From positions 1 through 28,289 of IMG/VR virus record IMGVR_UViG_3300047311_000570: a stretch of DNA of 28,289 nt. One strand, 5' to 3'. Position numbers and translations under genes: made by a program. Position 1 is the stretch's first letter. Each line of letters opens with the position of its first letter. Of this stretch, positions 7,467 through 28,289 are shown in pieces. This DNA is from a virus. The notes below the pieces were generated by a model, which was given only the letters and a program-made list of their open reading frames with translations, was not told the origin of the DNA and did no database searches.

Positions 7467-7468
7467 CC

Positions 7469-7645: not shown

Positions 7646-7646
7646 C

Positions 7647-8745: not shown

Positions 8746-8908
8746 TTATGAGCTGTTTCGGGTGCTGCGGGACCTCCCGCCCGCCGACCAGCAAGCCGAG
8801 TATGCTAAGCTGGCGGGGCAGGTAGACTTTAAGGTAAAGTCTCTATCGTACATTATCAAGAAGGGTACTCAGCTAGACGAGATGCTTGGAGGAGGCGGAG
8901 ATGCCTAA
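8726..8908 (+). CDS. Hypothetical 60-aa protein
   Basis: Start chosen at ATG 8726 (MKLPKNNYELFRVLRDLPPA) with GAGGA upstream; the longer frame from 8681 is inside the previous gene. It is a compact, helical, charged protein (ADQQAEYAKLAGQVDFKVKS) ending in a Gly-rich tail. It overlaps genes at both ends. No family recognised. Confidence 0.58.
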   Translation: MKLPKNNYELFRVLRDLPPADQQAEYAKLAGQVDFKVKSLSYIIKKGTQLDEMLGGGGDA

Positions 8909-9122
8909 GTTTTTGGAGAAGAAGTTGAAGGCTCAGTACGGGGCAGACAGCAAGATTCCCTACAAAATTATGAACTCCATCGGCGCGATGCATGGCAACA
9001 AAGAGACCGCGAAGGGTGCTGCGATGGAGAAGAAGCATGAGTCGGACACCGAGACTCACTCCTACGACTTCCGCAAGCAACGTGGCAAGCGAGCGCCCGT
9101 GAAAATGAAGCTGAGCAAATAA
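8901..9122 (+). CDS. Conserved small phage protein preceding the portal
   Basis: Start chosen at ATG 8901 (MPKFLEKKLKAQYGADSKIP, 73 aa), preceded by GGAGGCGGAG. The order KFLEKKLK-x-YG, IPYKIMNSIGAMHGNKET is typical of a small protein common in phage and prophage head regions, of unknown function. Near the C-terminus it carries HSYDFRKQRGKR, the third occurrence of the YDFR motif in this stretch. It ends one base before the portal start. Confidence 0.7.
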   Translation: MPKFLEKKLKAQYGADSKIPYKIMNSIGAMHGNKETAKGAAMEKKHESDTETHSYDFRKQRGKRAPVKMKLSK

Positions 9123-9123
9123 C

Positions 9124-11277: not shown

Positions 11278-11280
11278 ACA

Positions 11281-11310
11281 CCCGCAGAACAAAACGATGG
11301 TATCTGCGGG
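11281..11310 (+). other. Hairpin after the portal gene
   Basis: CCCGCAGA (11281-11288) pairs with TCTGCGGG (11303-11310) around a 14-base loop, immediately after the portal stop. The following CGGGTTATTT is only weakly T-rich. It could be a partial terminator or an RNA end-protecting hairpin adjusting the ratio of portal to downstream products. Confidence 0.5.
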
Positions 11311-11333
11311 CGGGTTATTTAACAGGAGGATAC

Positions 11334-12281: not shown

Positions 12282-12303
12282 AAGTAGAAGTAGTCTGGGC
12301 GGG

Positions 12304-12327
12304 GCAGCCAGCGCCTAATCTGGCTGC
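12304..12327 (+). other. Hairpin before the scaffold gene
   Basis: GCAGCCAG (12304-12311) and CTGGCTGC (12320-12327) form a perfect 8-bp stem with an 8-base loop, followed by AATCTT. It lies in the 73-base gap between the beta-helix gene and scaffold. A weak terminator or RNA-stability element is possible. Confidence 0.5.
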
Positions 12328-12354
12328 AATCTTAACCTACGCATCGGAGAGACG

Positions 12355-13398
12355 ATGGCCTTAAATGAGACTCAGGTAGTCGAACAGCCAGTCGCAGCAG
12401 AAGTAGAATCAGCCGAACCCGAATCACACTCCATCCCAGTTGTAGAGGAGCTAACTGGGAAAGGCCGGGAAAAGTGGTTAAAGGAGCCAGCGGATTATCC
12501 GCGCCCCCCGAAGAAGTCTGCTCCCAAATCTTCGACCTCGACGGACAAGGCGGACTCGTCAGCCGCAGCAGCAGATGTGAAGGAATCCGACGTAACGGAA
12601 GACTCGTCACCTTCCCCCGCTCAGGGAACTGAGGAAACCGCCGAAACCGCCGCAGAATCGGCAGCTGCGGAACCATCACAGTCGCAACCAAAGGGTAGCG
12701 AAGCTGAGAAGCGCATCAAGTCGCTGCTTAGCGAAACCAAGCTACTCAAGCAACGGTTAGCTCAACTGGAAGTGGAGCGTGGTGCGCCCCCGACGCAGGC
12801 TGCCTCTAAGCCCGCCGCCGAGGGTGAGAAAGCTCTCGAACGCCCCGACCCCTCGAAGTTTGAGACCCTCGGGGAGTATTTCGACGCTCTCTCGGACTTT
12901 AAGGTAGAGTCCGCGCTGCGTACCGAGCGGCAACGGCAGGCCCAGGAGTGGGAGCAGTCTCAGGCTCAACAGAAGGTTCAGGTTGAGCGTGAGCAGTGGA
13001 ACTCGAAAATCGACGGTGCCCGCAAGCGACACCCCGACTTCGACACCATCGCTCTCAACCCCGACCTCCCCGTGGCAGAAGGCTCAGCAATCGACTGGTG
13101 GGTGATGAACAGCGAACATGGAGCAGAGGTGCTCTATCACTTCGCCTCCAATCCCGACCAGCTCGAAGCCCTGAACCGGATGCCTCCGCTTGAAGCCGCC
13201 AAGGCTCTCGCCAAAGTTGAGTTCGAAATGACCGACGCCCCTGCGCCTGTGCAACGTCAGGTTCCAAAAGCGCCTCCCCCGCCACGAGAGGCTAATACTC
13301 GTGGACAAGTTGACCCGATAGCGGCGGCGCTCGCAGCCGGTGACTTTGGCACATATCGACGCCTAAAGGACGCCGAGGAGCGAGGGAAACGCTCTTAA
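12355..13398 (+). CDS. Scaffolding protein
   Basis: A 347-aa product (P22 gp8 is 303). It directs coat assembly and leaves the procapsid before DNA entry. The first ~120 residues are acidic, Pro/Ser/Ala-rich and disordered; a coiled coil follows (EAEKRIKSLLSETKLLKQRL, about 120-142), then helices (FETLGEYFDALSDFKVESAL; ERQRQAQEWEQSQAQQKVQV) and a C-terminal basic helix (FGTYRRLKDAEERGKRS) of the kind that contacts coat protein. Position directly before the coat gene is the classic location. Start ATG 12355; GGAGAG precedes it. Confidence 0.85.
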   Translation: MALNETQVVEQPVAAEVESAEPESHSIPVVEELTGKGREKWLKEPADYPRPPKKSAPKSSTSTDKADSSAAAADVKESDVTEDSSPSPAQGTEETAETAAESAAAEPSQSQPKGSEAEKRIKSLLSETKLLKQRLAQLEVERGAPPTQAASKPAAEGEKALERPDPSKFETLGEYFDALSDFKVESALRTERQRQAQEWEQSQAQQKVQVEREQWNSKIDGARKRHPDFDTIALNPDLPVAEGSAIDWWVMNSEHGAEVLYHFASNPDQLEALNRMPPLEAAKALAKVEFEMTDAPAPVQRQVPKAPPPPREANTRGQVDPIAAALAAGDFGTYRRLKDAEERGKRS

Positions 13399-13416
13399 AT
13401 ATCTCACAAGTGATGC

Positions 13417-14664
13417 TTGGCAAATTCATTTCAATTTGTAGACTGGGTGACGATGGAGAGTTTGCGTATACTCGTCAACCAGTTGAAGGTAGCCGGTTAC
13501 ATGAACACCGACTACAACAAAGAGTATACGCGAGAGTTTGCGGTGGGCGAGACCGTTCGGGTCAAGCTGCCCCAACGCTTCAAGACCCGCGACGGCCTCG
13601 GCTACAACCCCCAAGCTCTAGATCGCCAGTACACCTCTGTCACCTGTAACCAGATTTTCGGCGTCGATTTCGAATGGGATTCCGTCGAAAAGGCTCTGAA
13701 AATGGAGCGTGGCGAGGAAGCAATCCGCAACGAATACATCAAGCCAGCGATGGCCGCAATTGCGAACGATATTGATTCGCGTGCAGCCTTGTTTGCTTAC
13801 CAGAACACCAACAACATCGTTGGCGTGCTGGGCACCAACCCCACCTCGATGACCACCTTCGAGCAGGCGCGGGAACGCATGGTTAATCTTGCGTGCCCTC
13901 CCGGCAAGAAGACCCTCACGGTGGTGCCTCAGGTTAATACGAGCATGGTCCCGAGTCTGGCGAGTTTCCTCAACCCGAGCCGTCAGATTAGCGACCAGTA
14001 CCTCGAAGGCTTCCTGGGCAAGCTCAGTGGCTTCGACGTGTGGGAAGATGTTAATATCTACAACCACACTGCCGGGACCGCTGGGACCGCTGGTAACGTG
14101 ACCGTGGTGGGAGCTGGCCAGTCCGGCAGCGCCATCAACATCACGGGCACCGCAGCCGAGACGTTCCTGAAGGGCGATGTCATCAGCTTCGACGGCGTGC
14201 GAATGGTTAACCCCCAGTCGCGCCGAGTTGTGGGAGCTGAAGACAAGCAGTTTGTTGTCACCGCAGACCTCACCCTGACGGGCGGCACGGATGTGCTGAA
14301 CATCGAACCCGCCATCGTTGGACCGGGGCTGTATCCGGCTGGTCAGTATCAAAACGTTGATGTGCTTCCGGGCGCTTCGGCAGTCATCACGTTGTTCCCC
14401 GGCACCTCAGCACCGCAGGGCCTCACGGGAGCGCAGAATCTGGCGCTGCATCGGGATGCTTTCGCGCTGGTGGGTGTGAAGCTGGAAGTCCCGAAGGCAG
14501 TCGAAATGTCCAGCCAGCAACGCGACCCCGAGACTGGGATTGCGGTGCGGTTCGTCAGGATGTTCGACCCGGTTCAATCGCGCATGATTAACCGCTTCGA
14601 CGTGTTGATGGGCTTTGGAGTTCTCTACGGCGATAACTGCGCCGTAAGAATGTTGAGTGCATAG
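13417..14664 (+). CDS. Major coat protein, P22 type
   Basis: A 415-aa product (P22 gp5 is 430). It builds the icosahedral shell with the HK97 fold. The N-terminus (MANSFQFVDWVTMESLRILV) and YTREFAVGETVRVKLPQRF are typical of the P22 coat family. A Gly/Thr-rich beta insert (about residues 218-330) is in the position of the telokin-like I-domain, and RMFDPVQSRMINRFDVLMGF is the conserved C-terminal strand-loop. It starts at TTG: a TGA lies two codons upstream in frame, and the next ATG is residue 13. No clear Shine-Dalgarno site is seen, surprising for the most abundant virion protein. Confidence 0.92.
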   Translation: MANSFQFVDWVTMESLRILVNQLKVAGYMNTDYNKEYTREFAVGETVRVKLPQRFKTRDGLGYNPQALDRQYTSVTCNQIFGVDFEWDSVEKALKMERGEEAIRNEYIKPAMAAIANDIDSRAALFAYQNTNNIVGVLGTNPTSMTTFEQARERMVNLACPPGKKTLTVVPQVNTSMVPSLASFLNPSRQISDQYLEGFLGKLSGFDVWEDVNIYNHTAGTAGTAGNVTVVGAGQSGSAINITGTAAETFLKGDVISFDGVRMVNPQSRRVVGAEDKQFVVTADLTLTGGTDVLNIEPAIVGPGLYPAGQYQNVDVLPGASAVITLFPGTSAPQGLTGAQNLALHRDAFALVGVKLEVPKAVEMSSQQRDPETGIAVRFVRMFDPVQSRMINRFDVLMGFGVLYGDNCAVRMLSA

Positions 14665-14670: not shown

Positions 14671-15432
14671 ATGACTAACATGAAAACACTATACAAAGCC
14701 GTTATCTCGCTGGTTCTGGCGTTCGTTGGACTCACTCCGGCGTTCGCTACCACCTCACTCACCCAAACCACCCTCGCGGCGGGTGTTAGTCGGACAAGCG
14801 ACACGATTCATGTCGCCTCGACGACCGGCATCACCGTCAGCGGCGGGACCACTGCCACCGGCCTCTACATCGACAACGAGTATCTTGTGGTACTCGCGGT
14901 CGATACGACCAGTGGATTTGTGAAGGTCAGCAGGGGTCAGGCTGGCACGCGCTCTAACGCTCACCTGAGCGGAGCGATTGTGCTCGCCGGTCCGCCTCGC
15001 GCCTTCTACAACACCGACCCAAGCGGAGCAGCGGGTTATCCGGCTGCCTGCACCAACGCCGCCTACACCCCCTACATCAACATCATCACCGGCAATCAGT
15101 GGTTGTGCTCGACGGTGCTGAACAAGTGGGTGCCGGGATGGGGTAATCCGGGGAACTCCGGGACTCCTATCGCTGTGACCGCTGCGGTGGCTTCGGCTGC
15201 CGGGACGATCACCCCGAGCGGCCCCCTGTTTCACGTAACCGGCGCACTCGCTATCACCGGGTTCGTGATTCCGATCGGTTACAACGGTGGACCGTTCTGT
15301 ATCATCCCAGACGGTAACTTCACCACCACCACAGCGGGCAACATCGCACTCGCTTCCACGGCAGTAACTAGCAAGCAACTTTGCTATGCCTACGATGCGA
15401 ATGCGGCGAAGCCTTTCTTTCCTAGCTATTAG
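14671..15432 (+). CDS. Signal-peptide-bearing protein next to the coat gene
   Basis: A 253-aa product with AGGAG upstream of ATG 14671; ATG 14680 (MKTLYKAVISLVLAFVG) is an alternative. The N-terminus is a clear Sec signal peptide with cleavage after TPAFA. The mature part starts with a compact beta domain (IHVASTTGITV, GLYIDNEYLVVLAVD, VKVSRGQAGTRSNAHLSGA) whose RG-x-x-GT-x2-xAH-x-SGA ending recurs in phage virion proteins, followed by a Thr/Gly-rich beta region. Four cysteines could form two disulfides. By position it would be a capsid decoration or fibre, but the signal peptide implies export. Both readings are kept open. Confidence 0.72.
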   Translation: MTNMKTLYKAVISLVLAFVGLTPAFATTSLTQTTLAAGVSRTSDTIHVASTTGITVSGGTTATGLYIDNEYLVVLAVDTTSGFVKVSRGQAGTRSNAHLSGAIVLAGPPRAFYNTDPSGAAGYPAACTNAAYTPYINIITGNQWLCSTVLNKWVPGWGNPGNSGTPIAVTAAVASAAGTITPSGPLFHVTGALAITGFVIPIGYNGGPFCIIPDGNFTTTTAGNIALASTAVTSKQLCYAYDANAAKPFFPSY

Positions 15433-15495: not shown

Positions 15496-16242
15496 GTGGC
15501 AACAGTCCTCGACATCATCACCGACAGCCTCAGTGAAATTGGTAGCTATGCTCAGGGTGAAGTCCCCTCCGCCGCCGACGCCCAGTTTGCACTTCGCAAG
15601 CTAAACCGGATGTTGGATGCATGGAATGCGCGAAGGTTGATGATTTATACGACTACCTTTGCTCAGTATACGCTGGTGCCGGGCTTGATTCCCCACACCA
15701 TCGGCCCGAGCGGCGCAACCTACACAGTCAGCCAGCGCCCCGTCCGCATCGAGGCCGCCAACATTATCTTGAACAACGTGGTTCCCTACGTGAAGAGTCC
15801 GCTGAACATCCGTAACGACCAATTCTGGGAAAACCAACCCGTCCCCACTATCACCACCACTCTCCCCACCGACCTCTACTACTCCCCGGCGTGGCCCAAC
15901 GGTCAACTCTACATCTGGCCAGTCCCCACGGTCGCTTACGGACTCGAACTTTGGTACTGGCAGGTTATTAGTCAGTTTGCTGCTCTCACAGACACGGTGA
16001 GCTTCCCTCCCGGCTACCAGAACGCCATCGTCTATTCGCTGGCGGTGGAGATGGCGAATGCGTTCGGCAAACAGGTGAGCGGCTCGCTCGCCACCCTCGC
16101 TAACAATGCGTTCAACTACATCTTCGGCAACAACAGCGATTCGCCGCAGATTGCCACGACCGACAGCGGAATCCCGGACTGCGGCGGCAAACAACTGCCC
16201 AGCTTCAACTGGCGCACGGGCGGCTTCTCGGGGAGTCACTAG
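15496..16242 (+). CDS. Head-completion / DNA-stabilisation protein, P22 gp4-like
   Basis: A 248-aa product from GTG 15496 with AGGAGG upstream. P22 gp4 (166 aa) joins the portal ring after packaging. The features are VLDIITDSLSEIGSYAQGE, ADAQFALRKLNRMLDAWNAR, the later YYSPAWPNGQLYIWPVPTV and the helix YQNAIVYSLAVEMANAFGKQ, which together are characteristic of gp4-type adaptors. The C-terminal extra ~40 residues are Asn/Ser-rich. It ends in a TAGTG overlap with the gp10-like gene, as expected for co-assembled hub proteins. Confidence 0.85.
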   Translation: MATVLDIITDSLSEIGSYAQGEVPSAADAQFALRKLNRMLDAWNARRLMIYTTTFAQYTLVPGLIPHTIGPSGATYTVSQRPVRIEAANIILNNVVPYVKSPLNIRNDQFWENQPVPTITTTLPTDLYYSPAWPNGQLYIWPVPTVAYGLELWYWQVISQFAALTDTVSFPPGYQNAIVYSLAVEMANAFGKQVSGSLATLANNAFNYIFGNNSDSPQIATTDSGIPDCGGKQLPSFNWRTGGFSGSH

Positions 16243-17714
16243 TGCCTAGCTTCGGATTCGTCGGACCCAGCTACGAATCACAATCGGTTAGCGCCGCTAA
16301 CCAAGCCTCTATCAATCTCTATCCCGAGCAAATCGAAGTGGGCAACGAGAATCAGAAGGTGGTGCTCTACCCGACGCCGGGATTGCTTGAGTACACCTCG
16401 GCAGGCAACCAAACTCGCGGGAGCTGGCAGATAAACGACCGGGCTTTCTTTGTGAGTGATGATGCGTTGTATGAAATCCCCGCCACCACAGGCGCTCCCA
16501 CCAATCTCGGCAACCTCGCCAACGACCAGCTCCCGGTGTCGATGATAGCCTATGGCGACCAACTGCTGATTGCGAGCGCCGGAATCGCTTATGTTCTGAC
16601 GCTCAGCACCAACGCCTTCGCGCCAGTCGCAGCCCTCGCGGGTGATGATGTCATCAAGGTGGACTTCTGTGGGGGATTTTTTATTGCTCTGATCGGCGGC
16701 ACTAACACTTTCCGCATCTCCGGCCCCATCGACGCCACCGTCTGGGACCCGCTGGACTTCGCACAGATTAGCATCTTCGCGGGCAATCTTATCTCCATGA
16801 TAGTAGACCACAACGAAATCTGGTTGTTCAGCTCGCTCGCCAGCACCGTCTACTACCTCAGCGGCAACGTTGACTTCCCTTTCGACGTGAACCCCAGCGC
16901 ACAGGTTATCGAAGGCGGAATTGCCGCCATCAACTCCATCGCCAAGCTCGACAATACAATTTTCTGGGTGGGCAAGGATACTCGCGGAAGGGGGGTGGTC
17001 TGGAGGGCCAGCGGGTATACGCCCACTCGGGTTTCCAATCACGCCATCGAAAATGCTATCTCTAAATATGGCGATATCAGCGATGCGGTTTCGTATGGCT
17101 ATCAGGACCAGGGGCACGCGTTCTACGTACTATTCTTTCCGACCGCCGAAGTACTCCCTCACGAAACAAAGACTCACACCTGGGTTTACGACGTGGCGAC
17201 CGGGATGTGGCATGAGCGGGGATTCTGGGACCAGCGCCTAGCCGAATATCAAGCCCACCACAGCTGGAATCATGTGTTCTTTGTGAACAAGCACCTGGTA
17301 GGCGACTGGCAGAGCGGCAAGATTTACGATATGAGTATTAACTATTATGACGATAACGGGGTGCTTATCAGAAGGCTCCGGCGCTCCCCTCACATCAGCA
17401 ACGAGCAACAGTGGGCTTTTCATCAACAGATGCAGGTTTTTGTGCAGCCCGGACTGGGGCCTACGCCTCCCTTGCTCGACGGCCTCGGGGTAGCTCGGGG
17501 TCCGGTGATGAACCTTCGCTGGTCTAACGATGGCGGTCAGGTGTGGAGCAGCGAGGTGCCTGCCGACTGCGGACAGGTAGGCGAGTACACGCGCAGGGTG
17601 ATGTGGAGACGGCTGGGGAGAGCGAGGGACCGAATCTACGAAATCAACATGAGCGACCCGATTCCGTGGCGGGTGGTAGATAGTTTTTTACAGGTCGAAC
17701 CGGGGATTAGCTGA
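16242..17714 (+). CDS. Tail hub / DNA-stabilisation protein, P22 gp10-like
   Basis: A 490-aa product (P22 gp10 is 472). It binds below gp4 and closes the portal channel. Typical features are the opening GFVGPSYESQSVSAANQASI with NLYPEQIE, a beta-propeller-like middle with repeated strands (FFVSDDALYEIPATTG, IFWVGKDTRGRGVVWRAS) and WVYDVATGMWHERGFWD. Start is GTG 16242 in a TAGTG junction with the gp4-like gene, giving coupled translation. Identification rests on motif order, length and neighbours. Confidence 0.85.
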   Translation: MPSFGFVGPSYESQSVSAANQASINLYPEQIEVGNENQKVVLYPTPGLLEYTSAGNQTRGSWQINDRAFFVSDDALYEIPATTGAPTNLGNLANDQLPVSMIAYGDQLLIASAGIAYVLTLSTNAFAPVAALAGDDVIKVDFCGGFFIALIGGTNTFRISGPIDATVWDPLDFAQISIFAGNLISMIVDHNEIWLFSSLASTVYYLSGNVDFPFDVNPSAQVIEGGIAAINSIAKLDNTIFWVGKDTRGRGVVWRASGYTPTRVSNHAIENAISKYGDISDAVSYGYQDQGHAFYVLFFPTAEVLPHETKTHTWVYDVATGMWHERGFWDQRLAEYQAHHSWNHVFFVNKHLVGDWQSGKIYDMSINYYDDNGVLIRRLRRSPHISNEQQWAFHQQMQVFVQPGLGPTPPLLDGLGVARGPVMNLRWSNDGGQVWSSEVPADCGQVGEYTRRVMWRRLGRARDRIYEINMSDPIPWRVVDSFLQVEPGIS

Positions 17715-18463: not shown

Positions 18464-19054
18464 ATGTTAAATCTAATCCAGTGCGATGATTTCATCCCGA
18501 ATGCTTATGAAATTCGAGAACAGGTTATTCAGCGTGAATTTAAGACCGAAAAAGGTCCCGATGGGGCTAATTATTCAAATGTCCAACTAGTTGAAGTACC
18601 CGAATTAATAGACCGCATCTCGCTGGTGTTGGGAGGAAAAATCATCCCCCGCTTGTCGGGATTTCGCTTAAATCTGGCGGGTGAACTTCCTCACTCATGG
18701 GTTCATTCAGACGAAATTTGTGCGGGCTGGGCGAGTGTTTTGTATCTAAATCCTCCCTCCCAATGCCAAGGGGGAACGGCTTTCTGGAAACATCGTGGAT
18801 TAAACATCGACCACTCCCCTACTCCCGAAGCTATCACCAGCAACGGATTTGATGTGGAGTGGTTTCAACAAATGCTCTCACGCGAATGGAAAGAATTAGA
18901 TTACTGGGAACAAGCAGGCTTCGTGACGATGAAGTTCAATCGTTTCATCACCTACCCAACCTCTATGTTTCATTCACGTTATCCTTTCGAGGGCTTTGGA
19001 ACCAGCCCCGCTGACGGTAGACTCGTGTGGGTGTGTTTTTATGACTATGTCTGA
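18464..19054 (+). CDS. 2OG-Fe(II) oxygenase-like protein
   Basis: A 196-aa product. A possible iron triad is His 81 and Asp 83 (SWVHSDE) with His 170 (SMFHSRYP). Arg 186 (DGRLVWVCF) is in the right place to hold 2-oxoglutarate. The core strands WASVLYLNPPSQCQGGTAFW and KFNRFITYPTSMFH fit a double-stranded beta-helix oxygenase and resemble a phage family of this type (possibly DUF6445). The substrate is unknown; hydroxylation of a virion or host protein, or a nucleotide, is possible. The base composition is visibly more AT-rich than the tail genes on either side, and the gene partly overlaps an acetyltransferase, suggesting a two-gene cargo module. Confidence 0.7.
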   Translation: MLNLIQCDDFIPNAYEIREQVIQREFKTEKGPDGANYSNVQLVEVPELIDRISLVLGGKIIPRLSGFRLNLAGELPHSWVHSDEICAGWASVLYLNPPSQCQGGTAFWKHRGLNIDHSPTPEAITSNGFDVEWFQQMLSREWKELDYWEQAGFVTMKFNRFITYPTSMFHSRYPFEGFGTSPADGRLVWVCFYDYV

Positions 19055-19493
19055 GCTAAGACTACTGATGCCCGAAGAAGTTCCGCTGGTGTTGCCGCTG
19101 GCGAGAGAGTTTTTTGCAACCGGCGAAATCCCCGGCAAGCTGAATGAGGTTCATTTTGTAAATCTCTTTCGCAAACAACTCGCTGAAGGCAACGCGTTTA
19201 TTATAGCTGCCGGAATCCCTCTTCGGGGCATGATTGCGGGTTTTGTGCATCAGGACCCTTTTGATGGTCAGCTGGTTTGCGGTGAACTCTGGTGGTTTGT
19301 TCGCAAGGAAGAACGGGGTTCGCTGGGATTGAGATTATTTAACGCATGGGAAGCTGAAGCTAAATCAAGGGGGGCAGTAAGGTTTCAGATGGCTCACCTT
19401 ACAGGTAGTAAAACAGACTCACTCGATAGGCTTTTTGAACGAAAAGGTTATATAATGAAAGAGAAAATATTTGTAAAAGAGGTTAACCGATGA
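19041..19493 (+). CDS. GNAT-family N-acetyltransferase
   Basis: About 150 aa. Start is ATG 19041 or 19047 (MSELRLLMPEEVPLVLPLAR), inside the end of the oxygenase gene; the longer frame from 18996 has no support. The layout is typical of GNAT: N-terminal helices, central strands LWWFVRKEERGSLGLRLFNA with an R-G-S-L-G type acetyl-CoA loop, helix EAEAKSRGA, strand FQMAHL, and a C-terminal ERKGYIMKEKIFVKEV strand. It transfers acetyl from acetyl-CoA to an amine; the target is unknown. GNAT genes occur near tail and injection genes in other phages. AT-richer than flanking genes; ends with an ATGA overlap into the first ejection gene. Confidence 0.78.
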   Translation: MTMSELRLLMPEEVPLVLPLAREFFATGEIPGKLNEVHFVNLFRKQLAEGNAFIIAAGIPLRGMIAGFVHQDPFDGQLVCGELWWFVRKEERGSLGLRLFNAWEAEAKSRGAVRFQMAHLTGSKTDSLDRLFERKGYIMKEKIFVKEVNR

Positions 19494-20281
19494 GTATCGG
19501 AATAGGAACTGCTCTGGCGATTGGAGCAGGAGCCAGTGTTCTTGGTTCAGGATTATCTGCTCATGCCGCCAATAAGGCTTCTGCAACCCAAGCCGATGCC
19601 GCTAACCATGCTGCTGACCTCCAGAAGCAGGCTGCTGACGAATCGCTCGCGTTTCAGAAGCAACAGTATGGTGAGAATGTAGCACGCCAACAACCTTGGC
19701 TAACCGCTGGCACTCAGGCACTCGGCAAACTCAGCAACCTCCCAACCTTCGCCGCTCCCACCGCTGCCGACGCCGCCACCGACCCCGGTTATGAGTTCCG
19801 CCTCGCGCAAGGTCAGAAGGCGCTAGAGAACTCCGCAGCGGGTCGCGGGAGATTGCTGGGCGGCGGGTCCCTCAAGGCTGCCGAAAACTACGGTCAAGAC
19901 GCTGCCTCACAGGAATACGGAAACGTCTACGCCCGCCGGATGGGGGAGTACAACAGTCAGCTGGGGCAGCTTCAATCACTAGCGGGTGTCGGTCAGTCAG
20001 CAGGTCAGAATCTCGGTACCGCCGGTCAAAACGCCGCCAACACGATGAACTCCACGCTGATGAGCAGCGCCACCAACCAGGGCATCGCCGCAGGCAACGC
20101 CGCCGCCGCCCGCGCCTCGGGCTACCAAACCAACGGAGCCATCGGGAACAATCTGGCGAACTCACTCGGGAATACGATTCAGGATTATCTGACCACTCGC
20201 AAACCTTCTGGAGCCGCCAGCCAGGATTATCTAAAAAATTACTCACAACAGAATCCTGACTGGATTCCGGGGATGGACTAA
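19490..20281 (+). CDS. DNA ejection protein, P22 gp7 position
   Basis: A 263-aa product (P22 gp7 is 229). It starts with a hydrophobic Gly/Ala helix (IGTALAIGAGASVLGSGLSA), then a Gln/Ala-rich coiled coil (ADLQKQAADESLAFQKQQYG) and the telling DPGYEFRLAQGQKALENSAA and GRLLGGGSLKAAENYGQDAA segments found in many phage DNA-transfer proteins. The remainder is Asn/Ala/Gly-rich. Such proteins are packaged in the virion and leave with the DNA to form a conduit through the envelope. First of three such genes, following the order gp7-gp20-gp16. Confidence 0.82.
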   Translation: MSIGIGTALAIGAGASVLGSGLSAHAANKASATQADAANHAADLQKQAADESLAFQKQQYGENVARQQPWLTAGTQALGKLSNLPTFAAPTAADAATDPGYEFRLAQGQKALENSAAGRGRLLGGGSLKAAENYGQDAASQEYGNVYARRMGEYNSQLGQLQSLAGVGQSAGQNLGTAGQNAANTMNSTLMSSATNQGIAAGNAAAARASGYQTNGAIGNNLANSLGNTIQDYLTTRKPSGAASQDYLKNYSQQNPDWIPGMD

Positions 20282-20283
20282 CC

Positions 20284-21798
20284 ATGAGCCTCCCTATCAT
20301 GCGCCCGGAAGGTCCCCAGGATTCGAACGTGGGCATCTTCAATCCCGTCCAGCGCCAGCTTTCTGTTCGCAAACTACTCGACGAACAACAAGCTCGCCAG
20401 CAGGAGAATCAGCTTAACCAGATGAAGCTCCAGGAAGCCCAGAAGCAGCAAGCCGAACAATCCGCTATCCAGCGAGCTTATTCTGACTCTGGTGGAGACA
20501 TTGACAAATTCATGCGAATTGCTCCGGTCTATGGAGCTTCGCCCGAGACGATGTTTAAGTTGCAAGATGGCGTGGCGAAAGCTAAAAAGTCCCTTGCCGA
20601 CATGGACGAATCCACCTTCAAAGCCCAAGTCGCCAAGAACGCTGTCGTTTCGTCGGGTCTTGACGCGGTGATGGCTGTTCCCGAAGAAGGTCGCCCCGCC
20701 GCGTGGCAGCAGACTATCCAGCAACTCTCCAAACAAGGCGCTCTTTCGCCCGAGGAAGCTCAACAGTACGCCCAATACCCCGGTCCCGACCAGCTTAAGC
20801 AAATGGATATGCAACGCAAGACCACCGAGCAGCTTCACCAGCAGGCTGCTGATGAGCGAGCGGCGGCGGTCGAGAAGCGTGCAGTAGAAGTTCAGAATGC
20901 CCGACGTGCAGCGGGAACCCTGGGGGGCGCACTCGCCGCCAAGCCCCAGGATATTCAAAATTACGAATACTACGCCCAGCAGGAGAAGGCCGCTGGTCGC
21001 CCGCCGATGACGTTTGAGAAATGGGTAGACCGTCAGAATGCCGCCAAGACCTCCGCTGCCGCCGACAAGTCCGACAAAACGATGGGCTATGCCGCCGACA
21101 AGGATGGAAATGTCATCTACACCTCCAAGGGAGAGGCTGAGAAATCTGGCAGCGTGTTCGAGCAAATCACTCCCACCGATGTGAACAAAGACCGCCAAGC
21201 GATTAGCCTGATGAGCAACACTCAGCTGAACACGTCGAATTACAAGAAAGCTCTCGATGCTCTCCCCGGACCCATATCGGTTCAACACTCCGGCTGGATG
21301 CAGGATATTCTGACCGACCCCAAACTCGACGACGCCACCCTGCTCAACTACATCGGCGCAGGCAGCATCGCCAGCGTGGCACGTCAAATTGGTCGCGCAC
21401 GCGAATGGAACATGCTCACCGAACCTGAACGCAACGCTCTCACCCAGTATCTCCGTGCCAAAGCAGCGGTTCTCTCTTATCAACGCGCTATCACCAACCA
21501 GGGCCGCACGAATCCCGAAGCTCTGCATGTAGAGTTCTCAACCATCCCTGAACCTTTTGTTGGTTCAACCGCTGCTGCCCCACGTTTTGATGCTTTTCAG
21601 GAAAACATCGACCAAGTCGCCAGTCGCTTCCCCAGCAACCTCCCCGGCGCAGAGCATCCCCGCGATATCCGCAAACGCATCGAAGGTTCAGCTAAAACAT
21701 CATCTACTCCTCCTGCTGGTGCAACTATGAAAGTGCCAGGTTCAGATGGTAAGTTACATTGGAGTGACGGAAAAATAGATTTGGGGGTAGCTGAATAA
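20284..21798 (+). CDS. Second ejection / internal virion protein, P22 gp20 position
   Basis: A 504-aa product (P22 gp20 is 471). Long Gln/Glu/Ala/Lys-rich coiled-coil segments occupy residues about 25-75 and 165-215; the C-terminal half is more globular (LLNYIGAGSIASVARQIGRA, LTQYLRAKAAVLSYQRAITN). Sequence similarity to gp20 is not visible by eye; identity as an ejection protein is inferred from composition, length and place between two others. ATG is preceded by GGGGATGG within the end of the previous gene. An overlapping 384-aa frame on the opposite strand is a shadow of its codon bias. Confidence 0.65.
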   Translation: MSLPIMRPEGPQDSNVGIFNPVQRQLSVRKLLDEQQARQQENQLNQMKLQEAQKQQAEQSAIQRAYSDSGGDIDKFMRIAPVYGASPETMFKLQDGVAKAKKSLADMDESTFKAQVAKNAVVSSGLDAVMAVPEEGRPAAWQQTIQQLSKQGALSPEEAQQYAQYPGPDQLKQMDMQRKTTEQLHQQAADERAAAVEKRAVEVQNARRAAGTLGGALAAKPQDIQNYEYYAQQEKAAGRPPMTFEKWVDRQNAAKTSAAADKSDKTMGYAADKDGNVIYTSKGEAEKSGSVFEQITPTDVNKDRQAISLMSNTQLNTSNYKKALDALPGPISVQHSGWMQDILTDPKLDDATLLNYIGAGSIASVARQIGRAREWNMLTEPERNALTQYLRAKAAVLSYQRAITNQGRTNPEALHVEFSTIPEPFVGSTAAAPRFDAFQENIDQVASRFPSNLPGAEHPRDIRKRIEGSAKTSSTPPAGATMKVPGSDGKLHWSDGKIDLGVAE

Positions 21799-23549
21799 TG
21801 CCAGAAATTAAACTGGATTTCAGCAAGGCCCAACCAATTAAGTTAGATTTTTCTAAAGCTCAATCTGTTTCATCACAGCAGCAAGCCCCACCCGAATCTC
21901 AAGGTATGAAGGTGTCGGACCTCCTGACTGGCCCCGCCTACATGGTCAGGCATCCGATTGATTCAGCTAGATTACTAGGTAGTTATCTGGGTGGAGGAGA
22001 GCCGGAGACTGTTAACAAAACCGCTCGTGAGGGGGAAGTCGGCAATCGTTTCGCTGCTCCCGGCGCAACTAACACTCCTCTCGCACAGGGAGTCTCAGAA
22101 GCGGGTGCGGTTGCCAGTCTGGGGGCTACATCTGAGATAGGTGCTCCCCGGAATCTACCCGTGCGAGAGGGTCTGAGGGGAGCCGCCAGCAAGTTGAAGG
22201 AGAAAATCTCACGTCCAACGGTGACGGAGCAACTTCGTTCTGCTCCAACCGAGACAGTAAAACAAGAACCCGTTGTAAATATCGGCGGCGGACGTACAGC
22301 TCCCGCCAAGGACATCGGTAGATTTATGAACGAGGGTTATCAGTCTACGGGCGAGTTATCTGCTGAACAAGCTGCCGCCCGTAATGAGCAATACAACGCC
22401 CACGCCCAGGAGCTGATGGACCGGCAGACAGCTCAAGATAAACTCGACGCCGCCGCCAACAAAGCCAGCAACGCCCGCGCTCGCCTGGAGCGTCAAGCTC
22501 AAGAACAAAAAGGTTCCGTGATGGCGAAGGATATCGAGCAGGCGAGGGAGCTTGAGAAATCTCAAGTCGAAGCCGCCGCCCAGAACAAGAAAATTGACGA
22601 TAAATGGTGGAATGATGTGCAGCAGGAACGCCAGCAGCGAGCAGGCGCTCACGCTGAGATGGAAGGTGAGATTGGCGCGGGTCGTCAGGAACGAGCAGGT
22701 GCTCACACACAGATGGAGCAGGATATTGGCGAGGGTCAACAAGCGCGAGCTGCAGGCCGGAACGAGATGTATGAATCCCTGGCTTCAGCTCGCAATCGAC
22801 GGGGAAATCCCCGAGCGACCGCTGCACCCGGAGCGGCTCCCGAAGAAACCCCCATCTTGAAAGGTAAATCCACTCCTACGCCTCCCGGTGAAGGTCGCCC
22901 CGCCACCTGGACAAACGAGCGGGTGGTTGAGTTGGCTACCAAATCTCAAGACCCCCTTGTGCGTCAACAAGCTATCGACCAGTTGAATATTCGTAAAATA
23001 AAAGTCCCCAATCTAAAATATATCACCGGCGAAGGTTCACCTTTCGAACGCAACGTCAGCTCAAACGCCATTCGCAACCGTTTCATGTCGCCCGACCCAG
23101 CGATGCTGGACGCGGGACTGGGGACACTTCAACCGGGCGCTCAGCTTCCCAAACCTCTTTCCCTTAGTGAGCAATGGAGTCAAGTGGCCGCTAATGCTGC
23201 TAAAGAGGGAGCTGACCCTCAGATGGTCAGCAGGTTGAACCAGATTAGCGAAACAATGGCGCGTGCCGAAAAGCATATTAAAAATGCCCCCGCCGAACGT
23301 ACTGGCTTGAATGCCAGCGGTGAATCCGCCGCCAGCCAGGAAGCTATCAACCGGGTGGCGAGTGAGAAAGCGGGGGGCATCAAACGTTTCCGTATCGACA
23401 CCCGCTCAGGAAACGAAATCCCTCTCACCGGGGTGGATGCCGTCGATGCCCGCCCCGGACAGTATGATGTTATTGTAGAACGTAGCCCAAAGGGCGAGAC
23501 GGTTCTGGATAGTGGTCCAAAATCCCGGCCCTACAGGAGCAAGCGATAA
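21798..23549 (+). CDS. Third ejection / internal virion protein, P22 gp16 position
   Basis: A 583-aa product (P22 gp16 is 609). It opens with a duplicated nine-residue motif IKLDFSKAQ (residues 4-12 and 14-22). A Gly-rich stretch (about 45-110) follows, then a long helical Gln/Glu/Ala/Arg region (about 190-330) with three 18-residue repeats, then a Pro-rich linker and a C-terminal globular part ending in basic residues. No lytic transglycosylase motif is evident. The TAATG junction links it to the previous gene. The role as the third channel protein is inferred from position and composition. Confidence 0.62.
   Translation: MPEIKLDFSKAQPIKLDFSKAQSVSSQQQAPPESQGMKVSDLLTGPAYMVRHPIDSARLLGSYLGGGEPETVNKTAREGEVGNRFAAPGATNTPLAQGVSEAGAVASLGATSEIGAPRNLPVREGLRGAASKLKEKISRPTVTEQLRSAPTETVKQEPVVNIGGGRTAPAKDIGRFMNEGYQSTGELSAEQAAARNEQYNAHAQELMDRQTAQDKLDAAANKASNARARLERQAQEQKGSVMAKDIEQARELEKSQVEAAAQNKKIDDKWWNDVQQERQQRAGAHAEMEGEIGAGRQERAGAHTQMEQDIGEGQQARAAGRNEMYESLASARNRRGNPRATAAPGAAPEETPILKGKSTPTPPGEGRPATWTNERVVELATKSQDPLVRQQAIDQLNIRKIKVPNLKYITGEGSPFERNVSSNAIRNRFMSPDPAMLDAGLGTLQPGAQLPKPLSLSEQWSQVAANAAKEGADPQMVSRLNQISETMARAEKHIKNAPAERTGLNASGESAASQEAINRVASEKAGGIKRFRIDTRSGNEIPLTGVDAVDARPGQYDVIVERSPKGETVLDSGPKSRPYRSKR
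21807..21863 (+). repeat. Duplicated nine-residue coding motif
   Basis: IKLDFSKAQ is encoded at 21807-21833 and again at 21837-21863, separated by one Pro codon. The amino acids are identical but most codons differ in the third base (for example CTGGATTTC versus TTAGATTTT). The protein motif therefore appears preserved by selection rather than being a recent DNA duplication. Confidence 0.85.
22638..22799 (+). repeat. Three 54-bp coding repeats (18 residues each)
   Basis: Repeat units begin with Arg codons at 22638, 22692 and 22746, corresponding to RAGAHAEMEGEIGAGRQ, RAGAHTQMEQDIGEGQQ and RAAGRNEMYESLASARN. The first two are closely similar in DNA and protein, the third is decayed. The 18-residue period suits an extended helical or coiled-coil stretch and could change length by recombination. 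Confidence 0.8.
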
Positions 23550-24523
23550 TGCCACCTCTGGTACAGCCCTCACCGATCATCAGGTATCAATTCTTCGACG
23601 CCAATGGCGACCCCCTGGCGTTTGGCAAGATTTATACCTACGCTGCCGGGACCAACACTCCCGCCGCTACCTACACCGACCACACCGCCAACACGCAGAA
23701 TTCCAATCCCATTATCCTCGACGCGGGTGGATACGCTGACATCTGGCTCACCGCCAGCAGCTATAAAATCAGCGTCCACAACGCCGCCGACGTGCCCCTC
23801 TACACCATCGACGGACTCCCCGGACTGGGAAGCATTATCAGCGCGGGCAGCCTTCATCCGCTGTTTACCACCTCTCTGTCGGGTGGAGCCATCAACTTTG
23901 CCTTCGACTCGGTGAACGCTTACCAGCTATTCGGTCGATTCGCTGGAACCTCGGGCGACCCCAGCTATGGCGCGGTCGGCAGCGACAAACAGATCACTCA
24001 CAACGAAAGCGGCCAGATGCGCGGTTCGCAGGACCTCCTGTGGGATGATGCACTTAAAATTTTCACGGTGGGGACAAGCGGAAGTCCTGTTGTACGTCTG
24101 CTCTCCGATTCTGGCGCAGGCAAGATTATCTTCGGTACAGGCGTCGCACCGTTTATTGAAGACCACTCTGGCTCTGGTTTCTTCATTACCGGAGAAAATG
24201 GGCAAGATATAGTTTTCGGAACCCGTACGACTGGACCCGCCGACTATGTAATGGCTGCAAGCGGTGGCAATATAGGCTCTCCTCGCGGTACGTTTGCAAT
24301 GGGTAGCGGTTCGGCACCGGGTGATCTATTTCTGAACGATGGCAATCAAACCGCTGGCGTCCGTGCAGGCCCACACGTCATCGGTGGTTCACTCGCCACC
24401 CCCGAAACCTTCATCGCCGCTCCCACCGGGAGTCTCTACCTAACCACGGCGGGCGGAGCGATGACAACTCTCTGGGTCAAAGAATCTTCACCGACAGCTT
24501 CAACAGGATGGGTGGCTAAGTGA
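23549..24523 (+). CDS. Tail fibre with virion-binding N-terminal domain
   Basis: A 324-aa product. Residues about 10-95 (YQFFDANGDPLAFGKIYTYA, TPAATYTDHTANTQNSNPII, LDAGGYADIWLTASSYKISV) match the head- or tail-binding domain of podoviral tailspikes and fibres. The middle is beta-rich with fibre-like segments. The end (APTGSLYLTTAGGAMTTLWV, then KES and TGWVAK) is a common fibre C-terminus. It is much shorter than the P22 tailspike (666 aa) and has no visible beta-helix enzyme domain, so it is likely an adaptor or short fibre for receptor contact. TAATG junction upstream, TGATG downstream. Confidence 0.8.
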   Translation: MPPLVQPSPIIRYQFFDANGDPLAFGKIYTYAAGTNTPAATYTDHTANTQNSNPIILDAGGYADIWLTASSYKISVHNAADVPLYTIDGLPGLGSIISAGSLHPLFTTSLSGGAINFAFDSVNAYQLFGRFAGTSGDPSYGAVGSDKQITHNESGQMRGSQDLLWDDALKIFTVGTSGSPVVRLLSDSGAGKIIFGTGVAPFIEDHSGSGFFITGENGQDIVFGTRTTGPADYVMAASGGNIGSPRGTFAMGSGSAPGDLFLNDGNQTAGVRAGPHVIGGSLATPETFIAAPTGSLYLTTAGGAMTTLWVKESSPTASTGWVAK

Positions 24524-24831
24524 TGACTAAGATTGAAAAATTTATTCTCTTCGTGGTGGTGCTGGCGGCGATATGGGCGTTCAGTCTCGTCGCCCGAGCA
24601 GCGAATGATGCCCTCCAGCCCACCGAGCTTCAGACCCTCAAGCTCCAACTCAAACAACGCGATGCTCAAGTCGCCCAAAAGGATGTCTACATCGCTCAGC
24701 AGAACTTCCAGCGAGCGGTGGATGCGCTCCGATTTGAAGCCGAGCAGGTTAAGATCGACAACAAGTGGCCCCAGTCGGTTCAGTTCGACCCCGATACTCT
24801 GAAGTTCGCTCCCCCCAAGGAGGAGAAGTGA
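24523..24831 (+). CDS. Membrane-anchored or exported coiled-coil protein
   Basis: A 102-aa product from ATG 24523 (a GTG three bases earlier is possible). The N-terminal hydrophobic segment (KFILFVVVLAAIWAFSLVARA) is either a signal peptide cleaved before AND or a membrane anchor. The rest is a Gln/Leu/Lys-rich coiled coil (LQTLKLQLKQRDAQVAQKDV) and a Pro-rich end. The architecture recalls i-spanins (a membrane helix plus periplasmic coiled coil), yet no o-spanin or endolysin is adjacent. Placement between fibre genes may instead indicate an envelope-associated assembly factor. GTGA overlap with the next gene. Confidence 0.65.
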   Translation: MTKIEKFILFVVVLAAIWAFSLVARAANDALQPTELQTLKLQLKQRDAQVAQKDVYIAQQNFQRAVDALRFEAEQVKIDNKWPQSVQFDPDTLKFAPPKEEK

Positions 24832-25892
24832 AGCGACTACTCGCACTACTCATCATCATCGCCGGGTGCTTGCTGCCTGTCCCCGCACACGCCCAGTTCT
24901 CGCGCATCATCGGCATCACCTTGCGTCAGAACAATAACTCCCTAGCCGCCTACTACTCCTCCCCCTTCACCATCAAGGCGGGACCGAATTGCAGCTGGAG
25001 CATCAGCGGCACCACCGGAACATTCGACTGCTCGGGTGGCGCAGCATCTAGCGTACCGTTCAGCGGCATCACTTCGGGCACCAACACGACTGCTACGATG
25101 GTATGCGGAACGGGTTGTTCTATATCCACGACAGGTACGGGCACAATTAGTGCAACCCCTGGCGGAGCGGTTAGCTCTGTCCAGTACAACAATGCTGGAG
25201 CTTTTGGAGGCATAACGAACCTGAGTGGTAACCAGACGAATTGTGGTGGGTTGGGTGCTGATTGCCAGTTGCTCTCAGTCCTGCCGACGGCGACGTTCAA
25301 GTACATCATGGTTGGAACTGCAACAGACGCCCCTGCGGGAAACTATTTCGACATATATCAATTCGGCTCAACGGGCGGATTGTATATGGACAGCTACAAC
25401 GGAACACATGGGGCGAGTTTTACTCTGGATTATTCCGGCGACAGCGGCGTCACAGCGTACTCACCGAACGGCGGAATCTCCGTAGTGACTCATGACGGCT
25501 TTGAAAGTTCGATGCTTTCCCGTTTCATGGTTCAGACGCACACGAACCAGATTCCTGTGACGGGCGACTTCGCGCTATCCGGGGGATGGGGAAGCACTGG
25601 GGCGAAAGCGAACATTCGCGGTTCGGACAACGCGCCGGAGATTCAGGTCACCCCGGGCGGGACCGGCATCGCGGCGAATCCGACGATCACTTTCACATTC
25701 CACAACGGAGTTTTTGGCAACACATCTCAGACCTGGGTGGGAGTTTGCCAGCAACGCGGCGGGACTGGCGCGGTGGCCGACATCACGTGGGCCTCGACGA
25801 CTACGACTCTCGTAATGACCTACAACGGAACGCCGGTTTCCGGCTCGACCTACATCATCAGTTGCTTCGGCACTGTGAACGGGGAGAACTAA
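24828..25892 (+). CDS. Exported fibre-like protein with eight cysteines
   Basis: Start set at GTG 24828 (354 aa): it overlaps the previous stop as GTGA and has AAGGAGGA just upstream. The longer frame from 24765 would bury the signal peptide. The N-terminus VKRLLALLIIIAGCLLPVP ends in AHA before QF, a Sec signal; an IAGC lipobox inside it is an alternative lipoprotein site. The mature part is Thr/Ser/Gly-rich beta sequence with the fibre motif GGAVSSVQYNNAGAFGGI and a C-terminal domain TFHNGVFGNTSQTWVGVC ending in a second Cys. Eight mature cysteines, often paired (CGTGC, CGGLGADC), fit disulfides. Fibre-like by sequence, exported by signal. Confidence 0.75.
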   Translation: MKRLLALLIIIAGCLLPVPAHAQFSRIIGITLRQNNNSLAAYYSSPFTIKAGPNCSWSISGTTGTFDCSGGAASSVPFSGITSGTNTTATMVCGTGCSISTTGTGTISATPGGAVSSVQYNNAGAFGGITNLSGNQTNCGGLGADCQLLSVLPTATFKYIMVGTATDAPAGNYFDIYQFGSTGGLYMDSYNGTHGASFTLDYSGDSGVTAYSPNGGISVVTHDGFESSMLSRFMVQTHTNQIPVTGDFALSGGWGSTGAKANIRGSDNAPEIQVTPGGTGIAANPTITFTFHNGVFGNTSQTWVGVCQQRGGTGAVADITWASTTTTLVMTYNGTPVSGSTYIISCFGTVNGEN

Positions 25893-25893
25893 C

Positions 25894-26502
25894 ATGAAAA
25901 CACTCAAGGCACTCTCGCTCCTGCTTCCGTTCTTTCTAATCGGCGGACTCCTCGCGCTCGCGCAGCAAGACACGCACACCGGGCGAGTGTGGGGACCGTT
26001 GTTGGTGTTCGGTACCGATAACAGTGTAGCCGGAAGCCTGACGCTCTCGAACGGTTCCGCGAACGCCCACACAGTCTGGAGCAGCGGCGCGACCACCACG
26101 AACACCATCAACGGTTTTGCCACCGTTCCCACCACCGGCCACCTGCTCGATTGCACCGTGTCGAGCACGACTTGCTTGCTTCACGATAGCGGTATCGCTA
26201 CGGCAGCCGTGACGCAGACGATAGCCAGCGGAGCGAAGGCTCTCGCGACTGGCGCAATCTCATCTGGCACCTGCACCACGGCTCAAACCGACACCGCGAC
26301 TGGCACCGCCACCACTGACAATGTCATGGCCGACTTCAACGCTGACCCAACCGGAGTGACCGGCTATGCTCCAGTCACAACGGGGATGCTGACAATCATC
26401 AAGTACCCGACATCGGGCACGGTGAATTTCAAGGTTTGCAATCTCACGTCGTCAAGCATTACACCGGGGGCGATCACACTGAACTGGAGAGTCACACGCT
26501 AG
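25894..26502 (+). CDS. Exported fibre-like protein, four cysteines
   Basis: A 202-aa product with GGGGAGA upstream of the ATG. The signal peptide is MKTLKALSLLLPFFLIGGL with cleavage around LALAQ. A Thr/Ser/Gly-rich mature part follows. TVPTTGHLLDCTVSSTTCLL resembles the repeating units of phage fibres, and the C-terminal strand region (MLTIIKYPTSGTVNFKVCNL, then AITLNWRV) resembles a capping beta-sandwich. The four cysteines lie in two likely pairs. It starts one base after the previous gene's stop, and its stop overlaps the next gene (TAGTG). Confidence 0.72.
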   Translation: MKTLKALSLLLPFFLIGGLLALAQQDTHTGRVWGPLLVFGTDNSVAGSLTLSNGSANAHTVWSSGATTTNTINGFATVPTTGHLLDCTVSSTTCLLHDSGIATAAVTQTIASGAKALATGAISSGTCTTAQTDTATGTATTDNVMADFNADPTGVTGYAPVTTGMLTIIKYPTSGTVNFKVCNLTSSSITPGAITLNWRVTR

Positions 26503-27884
26503 TGAAACGGCTCCTCCTGCTGCCGCTGCTGCTTCTCGCGTGCCCCTCGGCGTGGGGGGCGGCTGCCGTACTGGGCATAAGCACCACCAGCACTGCCAAC
26601 GCGACCAGTTATGCGACGGGGTCTTTCACCCCAGCGTTTGCCGACCGCATGGTTGTATTCGTGACGGCATCCGATACAGTCGCCACGGGCACCACGCTCA
26701 CCAGCAATCAACCCTCACTCAACTTCTCCTTGGTTACCTCAGCCCTGAGTCGAACCAGTCTGGATACAACCTATGTGTTCGTATCCAATGCGCCAGCTGC
26801 TGGAAATGCCATCGTCTTAACTTTCGACTGTTCCGCCGATGCAGCGACAGGCGCAATCATCACCGTTATTCGCATCAGTGGAATAACAAAAGACGGTGTG
26901 GTTTCCATCAAACAGTCTGCAAAGATCGAAAATCAGGCAGCAAGCGGAACGCCTGCAATTACCTTTGGTTCATCTGTGTTGACTGGCAATCCCACCTTGG
27001 TCGCCGTAACCAACTCCTCGAATCCTGCAGCTTTAGCTCAGCCTGTAAGCTGGACAGAGCGGTCGGATAATGGATATGGGACTCCACCTACGGGACAAGA
27101 AAGCGCCACCAGAGACAGCGGGTTCACTGGGACGACGGTGACCTGGAATGGTACATCAGCTTCGGCATTCAGTGCGGTAGGAGTAGAAGTGGATGCTTCG
27201 GCGTGTACGGGTATTTGTATCTATCAGGATGGTTCCACCGAAGCGGGAAGCGGGACCGACGGTTCGGTTGGATTGCTCAGTAGCAGCATTGCTAATGACT
27301 ATTTTTACGTGGCGGTTGGTCTGAGTAACGCAACAGCTACGATTACCACCATCTCAGACACTTGTTCGGATACCTTCACGCAAGCGACCAGTTCTCCCGC
27401 TCGGGGGGCGAATAGTTCTGTCATTGTGTATACGGCCAAAACTTCTGGCGGTTGTGGAACGATTACAATAACCATTTCCACGAGCGTTGCCCACAGCGTT
27501 TCGATCATCGAATATAGCGGCCTAAACACCACCAGCGCTGTTGATTGCGATACGAAGGGTACGGGAACGGGCACAGCCTTCCTGACGACTGGCCCAACTT
27601 GCACAACTTCAGTTCCAGCAGCAATTCTCATCGCAACCAGTTATCAACTCGCCGATGCAATCGTTACCCCTGGAACAAGCTATGTGAATCGGTTGGGAAA
27701 ACTCACAGGGGCAACGTTTACTTATAAAACGGAGGACCAGATTGTTTCAGCGACGGGAACTTATACGGGTAGCGCAACCTCCGCGACCAGTGCCGAGTGG
27801 GTTATGCACATGATTGCACTCAAGAATGCCACGCAGCCCCCTGGTGCGATAACCCAAGTCGGCGCATTCCTGGTGGGTCCATGA
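26502..27884 (+). CDS. Exported repeat beta-sandwich protein
   Basis: Start set at GTG 26502 (460 aa) in a TAGTG junction with the preceding stop; upstream in-frame ATG 26436 lies within that gene. The signal is VKRLLLLPLLLLACPSAWG; LLAC could be a lipobox. The mature protein has two related ~200-residue beta domains. Each moves through strands like RMVVFVTASDTVATG or YFYVAVGLSNATATI, a central SVSIIEYSGL or ITVIRISGI strand, and a final segment ending WVMHMIALK. This layout resembles Ig/fibronectin-like adhesive modules in phage and bacterial surface proteins. Seven mature cysteines. Likely ligand-binding; the target is unknown. Confidence 0.72.
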   Translation: MKRLLLLPLLLLACPSAWGAAAVLGISTTSTANATSYATGSFTPAFADRMVVFVTASDTVATGTTLTSNQPSLNFSLVTSALSRTSLDTTYVFVSNAPAAGNAIVLTFDCSADAATGAIITVIRISGITKDGVVSIKQSAKIENQAASGTPAITFGSSVLTGNPTLVAVTNSSNPAALAQPVSWTERSDNGYGTPPTGQESATRDSGFTGTTVTWNGTSASAFSAVGVEVDASACTGICIYQDGSTEAGSGTDGSVGLLSSSIANDYFYVAVGLSNATATITTISDTCSDTFTQATSSPARGANSSVIVYTAKTSGGCGTITITISTSVAHSVSIIEYSGLNTTSAVDCDTKGTGTGTAFLTTGPTCTTSVPAAILIATSYQLADAIVTPGTSYVNRLGKLTGATFTYKTEDQIVSATGTYTGSATSATSAEWVMHMIALKNATQPPGAITQVGAFLVGP

Positions 27885-28289
27885 AAAGAATCCTTCTAAT
27901 TCTAGCTCTATTAGCTCTACCTATTCGAGCGAGCGCGAGCGCGACGTTCCTCCAGATCGTTACGGGTAGCGGCGGCACCGGCACGACGAGCGCACCATCG
28001 CCTACCATCACGACGCACACCGGAAACCTAGTCATCGTCGCGACGATTATTGGTGGCGGAACGACGAATCCGGTTACGTCGGTGACTGACACGGGCGGCA
28101 ACGGATATACCTTTATCACTGCTGCCGATGCGGGGAATGGGAGTCTTTTCGGAGGCTGCAAGGCGAGACTGTTTTACTCCGTCATCACGACCGGAGCCAC
28201 GGGCGCAGTCACGGGCCATACGGGAGTGAACATCTCGGGCTTTAGCAACATGACCGTCTTTGAATACTCAAATGCGGGCGGCTGGGCTG
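27881..28289 (+). CDS. Exported beta-sandwich protein, paralogue of the previous gene (3' cut by window)
   Basis: ATG 27881 overlaps the previous stop (ATGA); the reading frame runs off the window after 136 codons. The signal peptide is MKRILLILALLALPIRASAS, before ATF. The following domain (GNLVIVATIIGGGTTNPVTS, then VTDTGGNGYTFITAAD, and FSNMTVFEYSNAGGW) matches the second domain of the preceding protein in order: a strand, a VxDTxxNxFT turn, a Tyr strand, and a final (I/F)EYS strand. This indicates tandem duplication of a secreted adhesion-like module. Total length cannot be known. Confidence 0.7.
   Translation, partial: MKRILLILALLALPIRASASATFLQIVTGSGGTGTTSAPSPTITTHTGNLVIVATIIGGGTTNPVTSVTDTGGNGYTFITAADAGNGSLFGGCKARLFYSVITTGATGAVTGHTGVNISGFSNMTVFEYSNAGGWA

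Follow-up and report, generated by a model that had tools for sequence, protein, structure and literature searches.

The window analysed here is the complete 28,289-bp IMG/VR record of a virus (IMGVR_UViG_3300047311_000570). A conventional tail fibre gene, f0 (23549–24523, plus strand), is followed on the same strand by five consecutive overlapping or abutting genes, g1–g5, each encoding a Sec-type N-terminus with an AxA-type cleavage site. The f0 product has a P22-type head-binding domain (HBD; phrog_26190, E 1e-7) homologous to the N-termini of tail spikes from isolated phages, carries neither a signal peptide (SP) nor cysteine, and represents the cytoplasmic reference version. In g1 (24523–24831) the signal or anchor segment (24523–24600) precedes a short, charged, helical-looking part that lacks cysteine and is not fibre-like. 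Behind their signals the other four genes encode Thr/Ser/Gly-rich beta proteins: g2 (24828–25892, GTG start, SP 24828–24893) with 8 mature cysteines; g3 (25894–26502, SP 25894–25962), a short fibre with 4 cysteines that ends in a conserved C-terminal domain; g4 (26502–27884, GTG start, SP 26502–26558), a long beta protein with 7; and g5 (27881–28289, SP 27881–27937), which is truncated by the contig end and by eye is similar to part of g4. A first-pass annotation made from the letters alone had described five successive Sec-type N-termini after a tail fibre, fibre-like beta sequence in four of them (here g2–g5) and mature cysteine counts of 8, 4 and 7, all of which was borne out. SP and gene calls were made with home-made scripts rather than SignalP, and the figures given here would shift with SignalP or a trained gene caller.

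The hallmarks of Sec preproteins (a positive N-region, a hydrophobic core and an AxA-type site at the true start) are found in g1–g5 and in a sixth gene at 14671–15432. The start of g2 is fixed so as to include the SP by a preceding ribosome-binding site, AAGGAGG (24817–24823), and a Shine-Dalgarno-like motif occurs at 41 of 88 scored SP-bearing starts (47%) versus a background of 11% at random positions. Shuffled N-termini gave 0.4–2.5% false-positive SP calls, and the SP rate at called starts was 40% for Thr/Ser/Gly-rich genes versus 5% for other genes. A wrong-start artefact was ruled out by the ribosome-binding motifs at SP starts and by the SP being kept in all 12 early homologues whose N-terminus is visible, and chance hydrophobic starts were ruled out by the shuffles and the SP-less controls. 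The start codons were not found to lie downstream of the hydrophobic segments, a finding that would have undone the first-pass claim. The two possible lipoboxes of that annotation do exist, IAGC in g2 fitting the consensus and LLAC in g4 being marginal, and the cysteine at this position of g2 and g4 is not conserved among relatives. Since AxA-type sites lie downstream in both proteins and glutamine occupies position +1 after the site in 51 of the 88 scored SP-bearing relatives, signal peptidase I is the likelier processing enzyme. It is extremely unlikely that the hydrophobic N-termini are instead retained anchors to the virion or inner membrane: g1 could be such an anchor and nothing else specific favours the idea, whereas the conserved AxA-Q sites, and the tracking of the SP by cysteine pairs in two separate domains described below, point to cleaved protein in an oxidising compartment.

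The 103-residue C-terminal tip domain of g3 (26191–26499) gave an AlphaFold model with a predicted local distance difference test (pLDDT) score of 94.9. Its relatives come nearly all from viral contigs, with a few from bacterial bins (Acidobacteria, Terriglobia, Desulfarculales and Alphaproteobacteria), and a search for isolated phages with the domain gave none. Redundancy removal left 105 open reading frames (ORFs), of which 4 are cut at the N-terminus. Among the 101 informative ones the SP is retained in 93 and absent from 8, even though protein length and the stretch between signal and domain vary widely in the SP-bearing set. A conserved cysteine pair, encoded in g3 at 26272–26274 and 26437–26439, occurs in 90 of the 93 SP-bearing homologues and in none of the 8 SP-less ones (Fisher p 8e-10, relatedness not removed), the latter having A/V, K/V, S/V or S/S at these positions. 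Retention of the SP in homologues, the check proposed with the first-pass annotation, thus came out in favour of the signals, with cysteines that co-vary. Six of the eight SP-less homologues come from loci where the scored strand has no SP gene (the exceptions being L074 and L168) and SP genes are clustered in trains of up to 8; from the first of these observations, export may be a trait of entire modules. In g3-family loci generally, Thr/Ser/Gly-rich genes contain 1.70 cysteines per 100 residues with an SP versus 0.78 without, and an even cysteine count is found in 77% of SP-bearing (n=215) versus 47% of SP-less (n=99) fibre-like genes. One SP-bearing chain (L043, 1684–9291) extends to 2,516 residues with the g3 domain at its end.

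A second, unrelated domain shows the same co-variation. At its N-terminus f0 has the tail-spike HBD of the isolates Xanthomonas PBR31, Rhodoferax P26218, Shewanella X14 and Pseudomonas PAE2; in the isolate matches examined no SP was found on any, and the chains begin at or near the domain. In uncultured contigs, the HBD is found behind an SP (L138, L139, L186–L188, L191–L193, L042, L045, L113, L343, L013, L002, L015 and L063), and the P22-type fold is recognized in SP-bearing relatives (L042, L045, L138, L139, L343, L359 and others) by phrog_26190 matches and by a model of the L343 domain. Exactly two cysteines are present in 13 of 16 SP-bearing versus 0 of 105 SP-less HBDs (121 unique domains), and in 12 of 15 versus 0 of 47 after removal of redundancy at 80% (p 2e-10). 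A further SP-bearing HBD with a cysteine pair, in a Pseudomonadota genome (L350/L359), was found after this count. The pairs occupy differing sites (PCxGC; QGC..VTCD; TYCD..SSSC; CLFSY..NCASG), which suggests that they were gained repeatedly. No separate SP-less copy was found when one was looked for in 17 contigs with an SP-bearing HBD; in one of these (record G401) there is a second weak HBD match, in another SP-bearing ORF. In L139, L042 and L359 the SP-bearing HBD gene directly follows ejection-like genes, which is the position of f0 in the window, and an L042 gene (7294) combines an SP, an HBD and a g3-type C-terminal domain in a single chain.

In Foldseek the exported HBD of L343 (AlphaFold pLDDT 92.9) matched the tail complexes of Pan3 and Pam1, the HBD of the P22 tailspike (1lkt, 8tvr) and Sf6 gp14, with best E values from 3e-6 to about 1e-3, and the exported domain of the relatives is, as modelled, a P22-type HBD. 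The g3 domain model resembles the C-terminal parts of the tailspikes phi297 gp61, Pam1 and LKA1 with weak E values (0.08–0.9) and probabilities of up to 0.99, and in BFVD it is also similar to predicted pectate-lyase and tail proteins of phages. Raw cysteine richness was dropped as proof, as the cytoplasmic tail spikes of PBR31 (6 cysteines) and X14 (11 cysteines) are also rich; because cytoplasmic spikes can be so, the evidence used is cysteine pairing and its co-variation with the SP.

The rest of the gene content indicates that the window holds the tail-fibre/tail-spike module together with the head and hub gene set of a P22-like podovirus. On the plus strand and without SPs are genes for the portal protein (9124–11277, phrog_156, E 6e-85), the major head protein (13453–14664, phrog_283, E 3e-60), a gp4-like head-tail adaptor (15496–16242, phrog_12985/phrog_637) and a gp10-like head closure protein of the Hc3 type (16242–17714, phrog_578, E 2e-95), the last a component of the hub that is bound by P22-type tailspikes. 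Three proteins without cysteine (19490–23549) lie at the position of ejection proteins. Family profile matches identify a gp4/gp10-like tail hub in the window (15496–17714) and in L042, and a gp10-like protein in L359; the gp10-like hub of L042 and of L359 has no SP. Mis-binned cellular DNA was ruled out for the window by its portal, head protein and hub genes, and it was also ruled out for L183/L184, L357 and L359, which are prophage-like.

Export of the SP-bearing proteins into an oxidising compartment is well supported, since homologues retain the SP (93 of 101) and cysteines co-vary with it. We consider it probable that these fibres and spikes are exported, disulfide-bonded in the periplasm and joined to the virion after the inner membrane is opened at lysis. 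The chains would be exported via Sec, cleaved after the AxA site and folded with disulfides in the periplasm, while heads with the SP-less portal and gp4-like and gp10-like hub would be built and filled in the cytoplasm. Late in infection lysis proteins would open the inner membrane and finished heads would meet the waiting fibres. In the relatives the spikes would bind the gp4–gp10 hub through their P22-type HBD, and in the window phage the fibres would bind heads through f0 or another contact. We also lean towards the more specific proposition that assembly is split between compartments, with heads and hub cytoplasmic, cysteine-bonded spikes and fibres (perhaps together with the 14671 protein) periplasmic, and the infectious virion finished only once the inner membrane gives way. 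Such late joining is plausible, as P22 tailspikes bind spontaneously in vitro to finished heads and do so at the end of assembly. Cleavage, the actual disulfides, the timing and the joining to virions are what we infer, the joining from domain identity. Attachment after inner-membrane collapse is best read as the most fitting route, which for the window's own genes rests on their relatives. The likely benefit is a disulfide-hardened adhesin.

The first-pass annotation had left a choice between secreted or surface-displayed products and virion parts whose attachment takes place outside the inner membrane. The export common to both is supported, and the virion option is favoured because in relatives the SP fronts a bona fide P22-type HBD and those records yielded no separate copy without an SP; for g2–g5, which lack that domain, the secreted option keeps some probability. 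If secreted or surface-bound, the exported fibres would not be virion parts and would act instead, as adhesins or enzymes, by masking or trimming the receptor. This is unlikely; the roles that could follow from it are superinfection exclusion, the loss of fewer progeny on debris or a change of the lysogen surface, and phage-encoded outer-membrane proteins such as lambda Lom would be comparable. Consistent with it, g2–g5 have no HBD and f0 could be the virion fibre; a Terriglobia contig (L099) with no phage head genes nearby has SP-bearing homologues; and the gene for Lom, an outer-membrane protein with an SP, is flanked by genes for tail spike and tail fibre (PMC12309495). It is at odds with the SP fronting the HBD itself in 17 relatives and with the collar and tail-protein families found within SP-bearing chains (L019, L082 and L359), the match to phrog_8763 in the L359 spike extending over the mature length (E 2e-41).

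Several observations weigh against assembly of exported fibres onto virions, or against the strength of the association on which it draws. The HBD protein of the window itself, f0, is not exported, and g2–g5 lack an HBD of their own; in a head-binding profile search of the window f0 was the sole match, and g2–g5 are therefore not filed as P22-type tailspikes. In L099, head and packaging genes are absent from the 20 kb seen. The SP-bearing HBDs of L002, L015 and L063 have no cysteine in the domain, and neither do those of L344 and L345, in Acidobacteriota genomes, which were found after the 121-domain count. Three SP-bearing proteins (L045, L131 and L100) are exceptions to the cysteine pair of the g3 domain, L131 and L100 having no cysteine there. 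The g3-domain tree (92 columns) is poorly resolved, and the best tree has five SP-state changes; in the scorable independent pairs the cysteine state parallels the SP state, but just one such pair is on well-supported branches, so the Fisher values overstate independence.

Two of the g3-domain exceptions have features of their own. In L045 (8986–9291) the canonical pair is absent and two cysteines are found elsewhere in the same domain, a possible relocation of the disulfide, and L100 (9983–10288), which has an SP and no pair, is from a Desulfarculales bin whose host possibly lacks periplasmic disulfide formation.

In a dual role, exported spikes would first act on the host's surface polysaccharide, either from the periplasmic side or once released, and some of them would later join virions. 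Some SP-bearing chains do look like enzyme-bearing tailspikes, an L139 chain having a GDSL-type lipase match under the Pfam cut-off, and the g3-type C-terminal domain is similar to the ends of depolymerase tailspikes. As no partner or regulator was identified, we regard this combination as very unlikely.

Tailed-phage morphogenesis is regarded as cytoplasmic. In the literature searched, no description of an exported tailed-phage fibre was found, nor was a cultured phage with this trait found. The parts themselves are a variant of tail spikes and fibres of the P22 type to which a new property is added, and the assembly route that they imply would be categorically new. They share with P22-type tailspikes (P22 gp9, Sf6 gp14, Pam1/Pan3) the HBD fold, the gene position after ejection-type genes, a gp4/gp10-like hub and a C-terminal tip that resembles tailspike ends, and differ in the SP in front and in the cysteine pairs of HBD and tip, since in the isolate relatives examined the chain has no SP and starts directly with the domain. 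Functionally nearest is pIII (g3p) of filamentous phages, also a Sec-exported phage adsorption protein, the mature part of which contains disulfides. M13 G3p is described in PMC8310372 as a receptor-binding protein that carries a Sec signal sequence and is exported. Unlike the tailed, lytic-type podovirus considered here, in whose proteins no C-terminal anchor was noticed, M13 is assembled and leaves the cell by extrusion across the membranes, with no lysis, and its g3p is membrane-anchored. Lambda Lom and Sec-exported endolysins are likewise phage SP genes near tail or lysis genes, but their target is the envelope and they have no homology to tail fibres (PMC12309495, PMC6116005). If the proposed route is correct, it would bring a further compartment into the assembly pathway, link the completion of virions to lysis across a large uncultured phage group and explain the use of disulfides to harden adhesins. 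An SP together with an even cysteine count would then be a sequence marker by which to locate such phages, and testable prophages in the genomes of Acidobacteriota and Pseudomonadota.

Host assignments are indicated for a few prophage-like loci only, in Acidobacteriota and Pseudomonadota. In a 948-kb Pseudomonadota contig (L359), a head protein (phrog_334), the gp10-like hub (phrog_578) and ejection-like genes are followed by the SP-bearing spike. A 6.4-Mb Acidobacteriota contig (L357) has a three-gene SP-bearing train between ejection-like genes and a lysozyme-like gene, and at a second Acidobacteriota locus (L183/L184) SP-bearing genes adjoin phage genes with bacterial genes flanking both sides. 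The Terriglobia contig L099 has three SP-bearing fibre-like genes and one more phage-like gene (6906–13784) between bacterial genes on both sides; a phage remnant and domesticated genes are candidate readings of this locus. Homologues of g4 lie immediately downstream of a g3-type gene in L030 and in L099, and this g3/g4 synteny suggests an Acidobacteriota host for the window. These two syntenic genes are the only g4 relatives among the collected loci, and a scan of viral contigs gave no confirmed one; a homologue search of the collected loci gave none for g2 and g5.

The sixth SP gene (14671–15432, plus strand, SP 14671–14748), which the first-pass annotation had not listed, directly follows the major head protein gene and encodes four cysteines. 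Its homologues also have an SP (L051 10317, L126 86 and L127), a search for isolated phages with the protein gave none, and the product is possibly an exported head-associated protein. For g1, a search for relatives as a spanin or Skp-like chaperone gave none, and an assignment to DIMCO_N was rejected, the Pfam match being under the cut-off. In L045 (6260) an unrelated SP protein occupies the position of g1, and g1 is a candidate spanin, chaperone or anchor between f0 and the exported fibres. Two further window genes were noted by eye: one between the portal and scaffold-like genes (11334–12281), with no SP and no family match, has the look of a parallel beta-helix, and one in the tail module (18464–19054) resembles 2-oxoglutarate/Fe(II) oxygenases.

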